Shown here: positions 8,069 through 11,373 of the stretch, piece after piece
How positions within the stretch are numbered: position 1 is the first letter of the stretch
How the letters are laid out: each line of letters begins with the position of its first letter
The notes under the pieces: generated by a model
Database searches by the model: none
Told to the model about the DNA's origin: nothing
The model's input: the letters and a program-made list of their open reading frames with translations, nothing else
Translations under genes and position numbers: made by a program
NCBI GenBank assembly: GCA_015489175.1
Contig: WGAI01000012.1
Span: 1-36,306, forward strand
Length of the DNA stretch: 36,306 nt
Reading direction: 5' to 3'
Origin: Caldifarciminota bacterium
Lineage (GTDB): Bacteria; Hydrothermota; Hydrothermia; B15-G9

Positions 8069-9043
8069 ATGAAAAGGATAGCAGTATTGACAAGCGGCGG
8101 AGATGCGCCGGGGATGAACGCAGCCATCAGGGCTGTTACGAGGACAGCCATATCCGAAGGCCTGGAAGTGTTTGGCGTAATCAAGGGATATAAGGGGTTG
8201 ATAGAAAACAAATTCCAGAAACTTGACCTGCGAGATGTCGGCGGAATTATAGAGCGAGGCGGAACCATATTGATGACTGCGCGCGAGCCGAGATTCCTCG
8301 AGCGTGAATGGCGAGAAAAAGCATACGAGAACCTGCGCAAGAACGAGATCGACGGGATGGTTGTTATCGGTGGAAACGGTTCATACCGTGGCGCTTACGA
8401 TTTCTACAACGATTTTGGATTCCCGGTTGTTGGGGTGCCTGCTACGATCGACAACGACATTTCCGGGAGCGATTACGCCATTGGTTTTGACACGGCGGTG
8501 AACAACGCAGTGAACGCCATTGACAAAATTCGGGATACGGCATCTGCATTTGAACGCGTGTTCATAGTCGAGGTGATGGGACGGCGGGCTGGTTTTATAG
8601 CACTCCATGTCGGCATAGCGACCGGGGCCGAGATCGTCCTCATTCCCGAGGTGGAACATCCGATCGAGAAACTGGCAAACGATGTGATCGAGGCCAAGAA
8701 GAAGGGTAAGAAACATGTCCTGATCGTTGTGGCCGAAGGCGTTGCCAGCGGCAGCTCGGTTGGCGACATCCTTTTGAAACGGCTTGAACCTCACGGCTAC
8801 ACTGACATTAGGGTCACGGTTCTTGGATACATCCAGCGAGGAGGCAGTCCGACAGCCACTGACAGGATGATGGCATCGAGGATGGGCGCAGAGGCCGTTT
8901 ATGCCCTTCTCAGAGGCGAGGCCGGCGTCATGGTCGTGCTATCGGGCAAGTCGATAAAAACTGAACCTCTTGATATTGCAATAAATAAGCCCAAGAAAAT
9001 CGATAAAAAGCTTTACGACCTTGCCTGGAAACTGTCTCTATAA
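8069..9043 (+). CDS. pfkA: ATP-dependent 6-phosphofructokinase
   Basis: This 324-residue glycolytic enzyme phosphorylates fructose 6-phosphate. Key segments are TSGGDAPGMNAAIRA (8-22), IGGNGS (100-105), PATIDND (124-130, catalytic Asp128), the EVMGR substrate motif and GYIQRGGSPTATDR. Gly104 and the small residue before TIDND (Ala rather than Lys) argue for ATP rather than pyrophosphate as phosphoryl donor. Residue 103 is Asn where the common bacterial form has Asp in GGDGS, a position that contacts Mg-ATP. There is little ribosome site before the ATG. It follows coaD by 24 bases and may share its transcript. Confidence 0.92.
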   Translation: MKRIAVLTSGGDAPGMNAAIRAVTRTAISEGLEVFGVIKGYKGLIENKFQKLDLRDVGGIIERGGTILMTAREPRFLEREWREKAYENLRKNEIDGMVVIGGNGSYRGAYDFYNDFGFPVVGVPATIDNDISGSDYAIGFDTAVNNAVNAIDKIRDTASAFERVFIVEVMGRRAGFIALHVGIATGAEIVLIPEVEHPIEKLANDVIEAKKKGKKHVLIVVAEGVASGSSVGDILLKRLEPHGYTDIRVTVLGYIQRGGSPTATDRMMASRMGAEAVYALLRGEAGVMVVLSGKSIKTEPLDIAINKPKKIDKKLYDLAWKLSL

Positions 9044-9069
9044 ATTGAGATTTGGTCTCAATTTATAGA
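9037..9069 (+). repeat. Perfect 14-bp hairpin overlapping the pfkA stop codon
   Basis: Arms 9037-9050 and 9056-9069 are perfectly complementary around a TTTGG loop and include the pfkA stop codon (9041-9043). The stem is AT-rich and no T tract follows, so it may stabilise the 3' end or help termination rather than act as a classic terminator. Confidence 0.6.
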
Positions 9070-9093
9070 TGAATTGGGCGTTGATTTGCTGAA

Positions 9094-9122
9094 TTGACAA
9101 GCGATTTCAAAATGATTATCAT
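9094..9122 (+). promoter_or_regulatory. Promoter of the Roadblock gene
   Basis: A consensus TTGACA (9094-9099) is followed after exactly 17 bases by TATCAT (9117-9122), one base off TATAAT. The start codon at 9152 is 29 bases further. It is one of the best sigma-70-like promoters in the window, and it is overlapped by a palindrome. Confidence 0.65.
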
Positions 9123-9126
9123 TTTG
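9108..9126 (+). promoter_or_regulatory. Fur-like palindromic operator
   Basis: The sequence CAAAATGATTATCATTTTG is a near-perfect inverted repeat centred on the promoter -10 element. It matches the classic 19-base Fur box at 14 of 19 positions, including the core ATGAT-ATCAT. A Fur, Zur or PerR-family repressor bound here would block RNA polymerase. No such repressor gene lies in the window. Confidence 0.5.
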
Positions 9127-9151
9127 GAAAAATCAAACAGGAGGTATGGAG

Positions 9152-9508
9152 ATGCCAACGCTTGAGGAAAAAGTTATGAAAATAGTTGATACCCTTGGGA
9201 CATTGAGGGATGTGCGCGGTATTGCCGTGGCCAACACCGATGGATTTGTTATAGCTTCCAAATTCTTCGCCGGCAATGTTCCAGAGGAGAAGTTCGCCGG
9301 CATGGTCTCAGAGTCCGTGTCCTACTACAAAAAGATCCTTTCTGAAGTAGGTGCCGGGCACATCAAATCGGCGATAGTGGAAGGGGAGGATGGCAAGATA
9401 GCTCTGATCGTGGTTGGCGATTTTATCGTCATCATATTGGGTGGCCCGGAGCTGAACCTTGGACTTGCGAGGTCAACTCTTCAAGAGGTCACTAAGGAAC
9501 TGGCTTAA
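9152..9508 (+). CDS. Roadblock/LC7 domain protein (MglB-like)
   Basis: This 118-residue protein is a single Roadblock/LC7 domain, the fold of MglB and of dynein light chain 7. It shows a helix, the strand VRGIAVANTDGFVIAS, a long helix, then strands KSAIVEGEDGKIALIVVGD and FIVIILGG, and a last helix. Bacterial members often act as GTPase-activating partners of small Ras-like GTPases (MglA) in polarity, motility or signalling. No GTPase gene is in the window, so the partner is unknown. AGGAGG at 9139-9144 is seven bases from the ATG at 9152, so this start is preferred to the ATG at 9146, which is only one base away. It has its own promoter, an operator and a following terminator. Confidence 0.82.
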   Translation: MPTLEEKVMKIVDTLGTLRDVRGIAVANTDGFVIASKFFAGNVPEEKFAGMVSESVSYYKKILSEVGAGHIKSAIVEGEDGKIALIVVGDFIVIILGGPELNLGLARSTLQEVTKELA

Positions 9509-9515
9509 ACTAACG

Positions 9516-9560
9516 GATGTTCCCCTGTCTTCGTTAGGGGATAGGGGAACATCATTGTTT
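9516..9560 (+). terminator. Rho-independent terminator after the Roadblock gene
   Basis: Perfect 11-base arms GATGTTCCCCT (9516-9526) and AGGGGAACATC (9543-9553) are followed by ATTGTTTT. It sits just after the Roadblock stop. It ends only 12 bases before the ATG of the next gene, leaving no room for an ordinary ribosome site there, so it may also act as an attenuator. Confidence 0.75.
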
Positions 9561-9564
9561 TCCC

Positions 9565-10587
9565 ATGGATGAATGGAAGGTGTTATACATAGGTAGAGAG
9601 GAGAAGTTGCCGGGATGGTTGTATAGGCTTGTAAGCCACTCGGCTGAATGTGAGTGTGTTGATACGATCGAGAGCGGCATTGAGAAGTTGCGCAACCGTA
9701 AATATGATCTCCTCATAATAGGTCTCGAACGGTTCCACGATGCTGTCAAGCAACGCATTCGGGAGGTCGCAAAGGAAACCAACCCGGAAATAGATATAAT
9801 CTATACCAAGCACCTTTCGAGTACATTCGCACCGATAGGATTTTACTGTAACGCCGCTCGCCTTGAAGAGATGGTCAAAAACTCCCGTTTTTGGGGGGTC
9901 TCCGAATCTCACGATTTCCTTTCCCTTATTGAAGGCATCGGAGTCATATCGCACTCCGCTGCCCTGACAATAATATCCGGCGATTTTACTGGTGTGGTTT
10001 ATTTCAAAGAAGGGAAAATACTTCATGCTCAGGCTGGAGATGCAAAAGGTCGAGAGGCATTTTCCATGATGCTCTCGTGGAAAGGTGGCATCTACTTCGT
10101 TGAGGAGGGAATTGAACCGCCAGAGATCACAATCGATGCGCCTGTTGATTCGCTTCTGCTTGGAATAATCAGTCAGATGGAGGAGACTAAGAACTCTTAC
10201 GCTCAGTTTATCAAAATTCTGTTGATGGAGCTGCCCGGAGATGTCCATTGGGGCGCTGTGATAACAAACGGTAAAGTAATGGGTGCACTTGGCGAAGGCC
10301 CCAAAGGCCCTATACTCGGTTTCCTCAATCAGATTTCCCAAAAGGTTGAGTGGATTATAGGAAAGCTGAACCATATAAACATCGAATTTGATAACTGCTG
10401 GGTGACATTGAGACGGTTATCCGAAAATTCATTTGTTGTTGTTTCATTTAAAGGTAACCCTTACATAGTCGATTATGCCCTTCAGAAGAACCTCGAGAAA
10501 TACGGTGTCTATGCTATTAAGGAGATAGAGAAAAAGGAATTATCCCCAATGGAATTTTCTTTTGAGGAGTTCGAAGAATCGGGGTGA
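9565..10587 (+). CDS. Receiver-like + DUF4388 (PATAN) + Roadblock-like signalling protein
   Basis: This 340-residue soluble protein appears to have three parts. Residues 1-105 look like a receiver fold (KVLYIG, YDLLIIGL), but the usual phosphorylated Asp is absent (Gly53 at the expected place). Residues 117-185 match DUF4388/PATAN in pattern, with SGDFTGVVYFKEGKILHAQA and the late GGIYFVEEG. Residues 222-318 resemble a Roadblock domain (WGAVITNGKVMGALGEG, then strands around NSFVVVSFKG). DUF4388 occurs in bacterial signalling and gliding proteins. The location after a separate Roadblock protein suggests one signalling module, perhaps a heterodimer. The start has no ribosome site because a terminator hairpin precedes it. 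The 3' end overlaps convergent nadK by 48 bases. Domain assignment is by eye. Confidence 0.7.
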   Translation: MDEWKVLYIGREEKLPGWLYRLVSHSAECECVDTIESGIEKLRNRKYDLLIIGLERFHDAVKQRIREVAKETNPEIDIIYTKHLSSTFAPIGFYCNAARLEEMVKNSRFWGVSESHDFLSLIEGIGVISHSAALTIISGDFTGVVYFKEGKILHAQAGDAKGREAFSMMLSWKGGIYFVEEGIEPPEITIDAPVDSLLLGIISQMEETKNSYAQFIKILLMELPGDVHWGAVITNGKVMGALGEGPKGPILGFLNQISQKVEWIIGKLNHINIEFDNCWVTLRRLSENSFVVVSFKGNPYIVDYALQKNLEKYGVYAIKEIEKKELSPMEFSFEEFEESG

Positions 10588-11373
10588 GTCGTCGAATTTC
10601 ACTATCGATATGTTGGACGGACTCGCCCAAAATGTTATAGTCTCGCCATTTGCGATATTTTCCTCATCCTGACCATCAGCGGAAAGCAATATTTTTCCCC
10701 CTCTTGATCTCACTGTAATGAAGATTTTGCAGTCAATAGGGAGGACGAAGGGCCGTAATGTCAATGTGTGGGCACATATAGGCGTGACGATGAGCGCATC
10801 CATTTGGGGGTGAATTATCGGGCCGCCGGCGGCAAGGTTGTATGCAGTTGAGCCCGTTGGAGATGCCACCATTATACCGTCTGCACGCAGCCTCGCAAGC
10901 GAAAGCTGATGGGCACTGATCTCTATCTCGAGTATTCGGGCAGCCCCTGTTGCTATGATCGCTATCTCGTTCAGTCCCATGAACTGACGTCCGTTGCTCC
11001 TTTGGGCCACTACGCGCATCCTTTTCTCAATGGTGAAATCCCCGTTTCTCAATCTCTCAAGAACGGATGGGATTTCGGATGGTTTGAATATGGTAAGGAA
11101 ACCAACTCGACCGATGTTTATGCCGACCAACGGTTTCCCACATGAATAACGGGCCGCTCTCAAAAATGTGCCATCTCCTCCAATAACGATTATGATGTCA
11201 CTTTCTGAGCCTATCTGTTCCATTGGGATAAATCGGAAATTGGCAGGCGATAAAAGAAAGCTGGCGAGGCTTTGCTCGAAAACCGCCTCGCCAGCTCGGA
11301 GATTCTCTTCAAGAAATCTAATAACAGATGCAACTTCTGGCTTGAGTGGATTGGCAATAACGCCGAGAACCAC
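10540..11373 (-). CDS. nadK: NAD kinase
   Basis: This 277-residue enzyme phosphorylates NAD to NADP. It carries the GGDGT motif (in IIIVIGGDGTFLRAARY), the NIGRVGFLT segment and the conserved SPTGSTAYNLAAGGPIIHP, which binds NAD. The length is normal. It is the last gene of the minus-strand secD-secF-nadK run, three bases after secF, which suggests co-transcription. Its 3' end overlaps the end of the DUF4388 protein gene on the other strand by 48 bases, an unusually long tail-to-tail overlap. Confidence 0.93.
   Translation of the reverse strand: MVLGVIANPLKPEVASVIRFLEENLRAGEAVFEQSLASFLLSPANFRFIPMEQIGSESDIIIVIGGDGTFLRAARYSCGKPLVGINIGRVGFLTIFKPSEIPSVLERLRNGDFTIEKRMRVVAQRSNGRQFMGLNEIAIIATGAARILEIEISAHQLSLARLRADGIMVASPTGSTAYNLAAGGPIIHPQMDALIVTPICAHTLTLRPFVLPIDCKIFITVRSRGGKILLSADGQDEENIANGETITFWASPSNISIVKFDDSPRFFELLKRKFHWG

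Follow-up and report, generated by a model that had tools for sequence, protein, structure and literature searches.

The window analysed here, positions 1 to 36,306 of contig WGAI01000012.1 (forward strand, 36,306 nucleotides, assembly GCA_015489175.1), belongs to Caldifarciminota bacterium, an uncultured bacterium of the WOR-3 group. It carries a pair of adjacent genes. The first encodes a small MglB-like Roadblock/LC7 protein, the second a 340 amino acid (aa) protein composed of a degenerate receiver domain, a DUF4388 (PATAN) domain and a predicted Roadblock fold. We consider the chances about even that this pair regulates a Ras-like MglA GTPase as an accessory, heteromeric Roadblock complex. 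The best reading is that it works by protein binding rather than phosphorylation. The pair is located on contig C12 of a 2.06-Mb genome assembled in 77 contigs (G000), and relatives were searched among 60 genomes including this one.

The small Roadblock gene spans 9146-9508 on the plus strand including the stop codon. Its product comprises 120 aa when translation starts at ATG 9146 and 118 aa from ATG 9152, the position equivalent to the first ATG in the other three orthologues. The gene for the 340-aa protein follows at 9565-10587 on the same strand. A first-pass annotation made from the DNA letters had described these two neighbouring genes, and they are present as stated. Full-length relatives of the 340-aa protein exist in four of the 60 genomes, G000 itself, G001 (87%), G002 (56%) and G003 (37%), which belong to one family. 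None was detected in six genomes of the same order that represent other families. The remaining matches mostly cover DUF4388 alone, and some extend over the receiver, too. Co-occurrence in relatives had been named beforehand as the test on which the pair might fail, and the small Roadblock gene lies directly upstream of the 340-aa gene in all four family genomes, with intergenic gaps of 56, 56, 77 and 42 bases in G000, G001, G002 and G003, respectively. The outer flanks change: G000 and G001 have pfkA on the upstream side and ppnK on the downstream side, G002 has different genes upstream and still ppnK downstream, and G003 has rsmD and coaD downstream (gene names in G001 to G003 were assigned by likeness to the profile-scanned window genes). 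Adjacency in four of four genomes despite these changing flanks is good evidence for a functional unit.

Neither gene contains internal stops in any of the four genomes. The ratio of nonsynonymous to synonymous substitution rates (dN/dS), always calculated between G000 and G001, is 0.07 for the small Roadblock protein and 0.07 for the whole 340-aa protein. By domain, it amounts to 0.11 for the receiver, 0.05 for PATAN and 0.04 for the C-terminal domain, for which dS is saturated; the neighbouring pfkA yields 0.02. These low values in every domain mean that no part of the pair is decaying freely. Residues invariant among the four orthologues are spread over all three domains of the 340-aa protein. 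PADLOC, which searches for anti-phage defence, returned no match for the pair, NCBIfam matched neither protein, and Rfam found nothing at 8900-10700. The 340-aa gene and the convergent NAD kinase gene (10540-11373, minus strand) share 48 bases at their 3' ends (10540-10587), as they do in G001 and G002.

The small protein is a Roadblock protein, as had been annotated at first pass: Pfam assigns it to Robl_LC7 (PF03259) with an E-value of 3.1e-12 and 46.5 bits at a curated cut-off of 23. An additional MAPKK1_Int match is sub-threshold. Its profile aligns with a solved Roadblock protein at E 1.8e-7 and with MglB at E 0.0042 (range 0.004-0.007) over nearly the whole length. The three other orthologues stand at 90, 83 and 62%. 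In PMC4316618, coupling of a Roadblock gene to mglA is defined as location within four genes. By this definition, the small Roadblock gene is an orphan: the MglA-like genes of the genome are located on contigs C33 and C24, and the pair resides on C12, about 9 kb from the nearer contig end. In the 2014 survey by Wuichet and Sogaard-Andersen, 328 of 749 MglB homologues were orphans, and according to the authors none of them had been characterised at that time (PMC4316618).

The N-terminal domain of the 340-aa protein (residues 1-108; 9565-9888, plus strand) has no receiver match in Pfam, neither here nor in any other of the four orthologues. In hhalign, the stretch 5-86 matches the canonical receivers of relatives within the class (E 4.9e-6, probability 86%). 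The domain was modelled separately with AlphaFold2 (AF2) at a predicted local distance difference test score (pLDDT) of 74.6. About 36 of the 50 Foldseek matches listed for this model are receivers or CheY-like proteins by title, including TadZ and CpaE, and PPAT/CoaD and PtmA2 make up most of the remainder; the best E-value is 1.2e-3, and none is below 0.001 among the matches listed. The position of the phosphorylated Asp is occupied by Gly53, or by Glu in G003, so that the Asp is missing in all four orthologues. The acid pair is replaced by Gly10-Arg11 and broken in all four, too. Where canonical receivers have the alpha4-beta5 stretch and its Lys, the sequence is shortened or absent, and the Lys column is a gap throughout. 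The first-pass description of a receiver-like domain devoid of the phospho-Asp agrees with these data. Judged by its sequence and predicted structure, the domain is best called a pseudo-receiver. The three REC-DUF4388 proteins of family f11 in the alignment described below (L026, L027 and L028) carry Glu at the phospho-Asp position. From their sequences, this is apparently a second loss of the phosphosite, which possibly created an independent pseudo- or phosphomimetic receiver.

The central DUF4388/PATAN domain (residues 118-208; 9916-10188, plus strand) is recognised by Pfam (PF14332) with E 5.8e-9 and 36.5 bits at a cut-off of 25, in accordance with the first-pass assignment. All four orthologues match at E up to 1, and a profile search of the genome places DUF4388 at 9916-10188 as well. 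It is followed by the C-terminal domain (residues 209-324; 10189-10536, plus strand), which owes its assignment to AF2 topology and VIA-align Z scores. In the AF2 model, residues 211-323 show the order helix-strand-strand-helix-strand-strand-strand-helix, and residues ~208-325 match solved Roadblock proteins in the PDB at Z 10-12.5, where scores within 1 of each other count as tied. The top match is Streptomyces 3leq with Z 12.5 (99 residues, root-mean-square deviation 2.8), followed by Prometheoarchaeum Roadblock3 (Z 12.2), M. xanthus MglB 6h5b (Z 11.9) and MglC (11.2). Human Ragulator p14/MP1 entries score near 11; together with the C-terminal domains of Rag GTPases, such matches range over Z 10.7-11.9. 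A similarity of the whole chain to Rag GTPases was considered and dismissed: the root-mean-square deviation is 16-20 Å, and such matches are best read as two-domain coincidences. Ten-residue blocks over residues 222-318 have pLDDT values of 56-81. A Roadblock domain had been proposed for exactly these residues, and a structure prediction devoid of this fold had been named as the result that would speak against it; on the predicted model, the fold is there. The part of the claim that concerns the fold stands, and sequence profiles do not reproduce it: Robl_LC7 has no match in the 340-aa protein at E up to 10 and none in the four orthologues at E up to 1. The structure model is thus the sole support for this putative Roadblock fold.

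A GTPase partner had been expected to be encoded elsewhere, and a candidate was found. Two MglA-like proteins are encoded in G000, and all four family genomes have an intact MglA and a second MglA-like protein. The intact MglA (G000:C33:8262-8873) carries the motifs GLSGKTTN and TVPGQVFY, which are present in all four genomes. It is part of an operon with the order PAS-histidine kinase / 429-aa REC-DUF4388 protein / Roadblock / MglA / AAA_3 (MoxR-type ATPase). The same order is found in G001 to G003; Pfam scans there covered the three REC-DUF4388 proteins as well as the G002 and G003 kinases. The 429-aa paralogue combines a canonical receiver with DUF4388. Its C-terminal 124 residues have no Pfam match in any of the four copies and no Roadblock-named match in the PDB, in which two rows appeared at E 0.17 and 0.19. 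They align weakly with the small Roadblock protein of the pair over 110 columns (hhalign E 0.0015, probability 17%). The second MglA-like GTPase (L072:9236-9823 on G000:C24; L104-L106 in the relatives) has a degraded P-loop (GSGKA) in G000 and G001 and an altered TVPGQ motif. Its gene is convergent with a DUF4388 gene and adjoins a PCC-domain gene in G000 and, by likeness, in G001 and G002; this neighbour was not seen in G003.

Within the class, it is common to find receiver-DUF4388 proteins that extend into an additional C-terminal domain. Two genomes of another family, G010 and G015, harbour a related operon comprising FIST / Roadblock / MglA / histidine kinase / REC-DUF4388 / 128-aa protein / PP2C / Ser-Thr kinase (L077:917-8066 and L082:3200-10006, respectively). 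Most genes in G015 were named by likeness, and Pfam recognises nothing in the 128-aa protein of G010. In the class relative G028 (L078:5651-7063), a single chain of 471 aa matches Response_reg, DUF4388 and Robl_LC7 above the respective Pfam cut-offs; G028 is the only one of the relatives scanned where Pfam displays Roadblock within a REC-DUF4388 chain. With this protein, the domain combination, which was unfamiliar to the first-pass annotation, has an example in the lineage. In the literature searched, no publication was found that joins Roadblock, response regulator and DUF4388, an earlier printed REC-PATAN-Roadblock architecture may exist, and PATAN genes near MglA/MglB are already in print (PMC4316618). 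No publication on 'candidate division WOR-3' together with MglA was found in this literature, either.

An alignment (A2) was built from 20 rows, i.e. 19 of the 30 loci L006-L035 (L006 is the window) and the paralogue L042. L017 (a near copy), L021 (short), L022 (wrong reading frame) as well as L025 and L029-L035 (short DUF4388 proteins devoid of a receiver) were left out. All 20 members match DUF4388, and the 16 members other than the four orthologues match Response_reg as well (E up to 1). In view of these relatives, the C33 paralogue and the G028 chain, the 340-aa protein belongs to a regulator architecture that already exists, as a divergent form that has no kinase neighbour and has a pseudo-receiver. 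In a tree of 26 rows, which uses at most the first 250 residues of each (240 for a protein from contig C9), the window branch is solid (100/99), and its placement is weak (56/88, long branches). Descent of the 340-aa protein from the MglA-operon paralogue was considered and not adopted, as the tree with this placement and these branch lengths does not resolve it. The C9 protein (L074:15771-16487; 239 aa) has a borderline DUF4388 match (25.4 and 23.9 bits, cut-off 25), its gene is convergent with feoB, and its C-terminal half looks Roadblock-like by eye.

Upstream of the small Roadblock gene, a sigma-70-like promoter (TTGACA-N17-TATCAT; 9094-9122, plus strand) agrees with the consensus at 11 of 12 positions. 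The promoter scan of the 1.8-kb region found four promoter-like sites compared to 2.6 expected. Hexamers and spacing are identical in G001, and G002 has TTGACA-N17-TATTAT; in G003, the promoter was not seen by eye. Between the two genes, a terminator-like hairpin (9516-9553, plus strand) comprises 17 pairs and a loop of 4, followed by ATTGTTTT. Its fold has a z of -4.9. The terminator scan found one such site, and since 1.8 are expected by chance in the region, only the length of the hairpin is notable. G002 has a 14-pair stem (z -2.5), G001 folds differently (z -1.6), and G003 has none. The promoter scan detected no promoter-like site between the hairpin and the second start. This makes read-through likely and the 340-aa protein probably less abundant than the small protein. 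The hairpin suggests an unequal dosage of the two proteins, as far as sequence can indicate it. The hairpin also includes the last G-rich stretch ahead of the second start and, hence, may restrain the 340-aa protein at the level of transcription as well as translation.

How might such a pair act? The small Roadblock protein would associate with a second copy of itself, with the Roadblock domain at the C terminus of the 340-aa protein, or with both. This complex could bind either the MglA encoded on C33 or its divergent second counterpart and change the GTPase state of that protein or its place in the cell. The pseudo-receiver would serve as a protein-docking domain instead of a phospho-switch, and PATAN would connect the complex with an effector, for which the type IV pilus motor is a candidate. 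With one promoter and the intergenic hairpin, the small Roadblock protein would probably be made in larger amounts than the 340-aa protein. There are partial precedents for such behaviour. RomY stimulates the activity of MglB as GTPase-activating protein (GAP), and Roadblock proteins often form heteromeric complexes acting as GAPs or guanine nucleotide exchange factors (PMC9481161). Binding of MglA-GTP to SgmX uncovers a site for the pseudo-receiver of FrzS, which activates pili (PMC12632262). A more elaborate version can be put forward tentatively, and we regard it as possible and rather doubtful: an asymmetric heterodimer of a free and a chain-embedded Roadblock might regulate MglA, Ragulator-like in design, with pseudo-receiver and PATAN as scaffold arms reaching to the pilus motor. 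It might descend from a two-component REC-PATAN-Roadblock ancestor that lost phosphorylation, whereby a phospho-switch became a switch governed by dosage and binding.

A pilus output would be plausible. Type IV pili are the presumed target of the cyanobacterial PATAN proteins PixG, PixE and LsiR (PMC7690835), and a study of SgmX, an effector of MglA, mentions two PATAN proteins from M. xanthus among its unanalysed candidates (PMC11580455). T2SSE ATPases are present in all four genomes; G000 has frames of 592 aa and 366 aa close together, which would be PilB- and PilT-like by size and order. On contig C67 (L073:9465-18344), a Roadblock gene is located upstream of genes for a type IV leader peptidase, a PilM/PilN fusion, PilO and secretin. 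This region also encodes a 379-aa protein that joins MshEN to an AAA/DnaA-like ATPase domain.

Several observations weigh against a role of the pair as MglA regulator. No Ras-like GTPase was found on contig C12, so that the connection to MglA relies on knowledge of the family and on the paralogous operon, and the tree does not join the window branch with that of the MglA operon. For the 340-aa protein as a whole, the AF2 model was built from four sequences and reaches a mean pLDDT of 64.8 and a predicted template modelling score of 0.39. Profile comparisons of the C-terminal domain with the neighbouring small Roadblock protein and with PDB sequences failed. Those with relatives from families f6 and f11 (E 0.095), whose C termini themselves have no Roadblock match, and with the C terminus of the C33 paralogue (hhalign E 0.12) lend no support. 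The pilus link is circumstantial.

The missing GTPase on C12 would fit a different role, too: the pair could be a GTPase-independent Roadblock scaffold that assembles other proteins, for instance those of a metabolic complex or of the envelope, and docks them through pseudo-receiver and PATAN. The many orphan MglB homologues, 328 of 749 with none characterised according to the survey (PMC4316618), are compatible with such a scaffold, and so is the appearance of M. xanthus MglC, a paralogue of MglB (PMC7949163), among the structure matches of the C-terminal domain. However, both an intact MglA and a further MglA-like protein are encoded in all four genomes, and it is the MglA operon that holds the nearest paralogous architecture of the genome. 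We regard a scaffold as possible and rather doubtful. It is unlikely that the 340-aa protein still receives a histidine kinase signal, be it through another residue or through heterodimers with its canonical paralogue, and passes it to the small Roadblock protein. Its receiver ancestry is recognisable, the domain is constrained (dN/dS 0.11), and a PAS histidine kinase is encoded in the paralogous operon, but Asp and acid pair are absent in all four orthologues, the alpha4/beta5 stretch is shortened, and no kinase gene was recognised by eye among the window open reading frames of at least 150 aa. A degenerate receiver and missing kinase and GTPase neighbours could also mark a decaying duplicate of the MglA-operon pair on its way to loss. 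Intact reading frames in four genomes, dN/dS values of 0.04-0.11 per domain in the comparison with G001 and invariant residues throughout make this fate hardly credible.

The last alternative concerns transcription. A perfect 8-1-8 palindrome (9109-9125, strandless) overlaps the -10 box, and the first-pass annotation had suspected a metal-type operator there. The pair would then be a metal-responsive, Fur-type signalling pair controlled through this site. We take the palindrome core to be Fur-like. For sites with up to three mismatches to the palindrome, chance predicts 0.23 occurrences in the window, G001 retains it with one outermost base changed, and G000 encodes two FUR-family proteins. 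On the other hand, the window contains two perfect 17-base palindromes, and 30 first-order Markov sequences had a mean of 0.6 and a maximum of 2. In G002, the palindrome has decayed although the promoter hexamers are kept, and in G003 it was not seen. The 13-base core occurs with at most one mismatch at seven places in the genome including that in the window, none of which was recognised as preceding an iron gene, and no copy within two mismatches exists in L074, which comprises feoB and 271 bases upstream of its open reading frame. The palindrome itself is real and perfect, but a metal operator or Fur-box regulon was rejected as unsupported, since the site overlaps the -10 box, decays in G002 and was not recognised in front of metal genes at the places located. 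Metal control of the pair is, therefore, quite improbable.

As a putative MglA regulator, the pair looks like a new variant of the known bacterial polarity systems; no new principle is proven, and the proposed mechanism reaches beyond what the domain anatomy shows. It resembles the MglA/MglB polarity module of Myxococcus xanthus and Thermus, with its Roadblock GAP, in the MglB-matching Roadblock protein and the intact genomic MglA. In contrast to this module, it is uncoupled from mglA, and the partner carries a fused second Roadblock fold, as far as the model predicts. With the bipartite MglB/RomY GAP complex, it shares the proposed principle of a Roadblock protein acting with a second protein. 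By description, RomY comprises 188 residues with a conserved region that matches no characterised domain (PMC9481161), whereas the 340-aa protein consists of pseudo-receiver, PATAN and Roadblock. FrzS likewise has a receiver that lacks the phospho-Asp and operates in a network around MglA (PMC1974792, PMC12632262). It is said to end in a coiled coil, where the 340-aa protein has PATAN and Roadblock.

Other relatives share the composition of the chain. In the cyanobacterial PATAN response regulators PatA, PixG, PixE and LsiR, PATAN is joined to a receiver as it is here (PMC7690835). In PatA, however, PATAN is N-terminal (PMC7690835), whereas the order in the 340-aa protein is receiver-PATAN-Roadblock and the receiver is dead. 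Fusions of Response_reg and Robl_LC7 have an N-terminal receiver and a C-terminal Roadblock, and some of their C-terminal regions fall below the Pfam threshold (PMC4316618). They differ from the 340-aa protein, which has PATAN in between, a receiver without Asp and a separate Roadblock gene adjacent. The G028 protein has the same three domains in the same order, but its receiver matches canonically, its Roadblock is detectable, and it is not an orthologue. Actinobacterial conservons (histidine kinase, Roadblock, CvnC, GTPase) are kinase-Roadblock-GTPase operons like that on C33 (PMC4316618). They are described without a response regulator (PMC4316618), whereas the window pair has neither kinase nor GTPase. 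Finally, Ragulator p14/MP1 and the C-terminal domains of Rag GTPases share the Roadblock fold and form heteromeric pairs. In Rag proteins, the N-terminal domain is a GTPase, whereas that of the 340-aa protein is receiver-like. Asymmetric Roadblock pairs are known from eukaryotic Rag/Ragulator complexes.

What makes this pair informative is the company of its orphan MglB, a partner that bears a dead receiver and, according to the model, a hidden second Roadblock fold. The other REC-DUF4388 protein of the same lineage is part of a kinase-regulator-Roadblock-GTPase operon. Both versions within one genome offer a way to test how a phosphorylation-controlled GTPase regulator becomes phosphorylation-independent. 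The pair would also allow a test of whether asymmetric Roadblock pairs act on MglA in bacteria.

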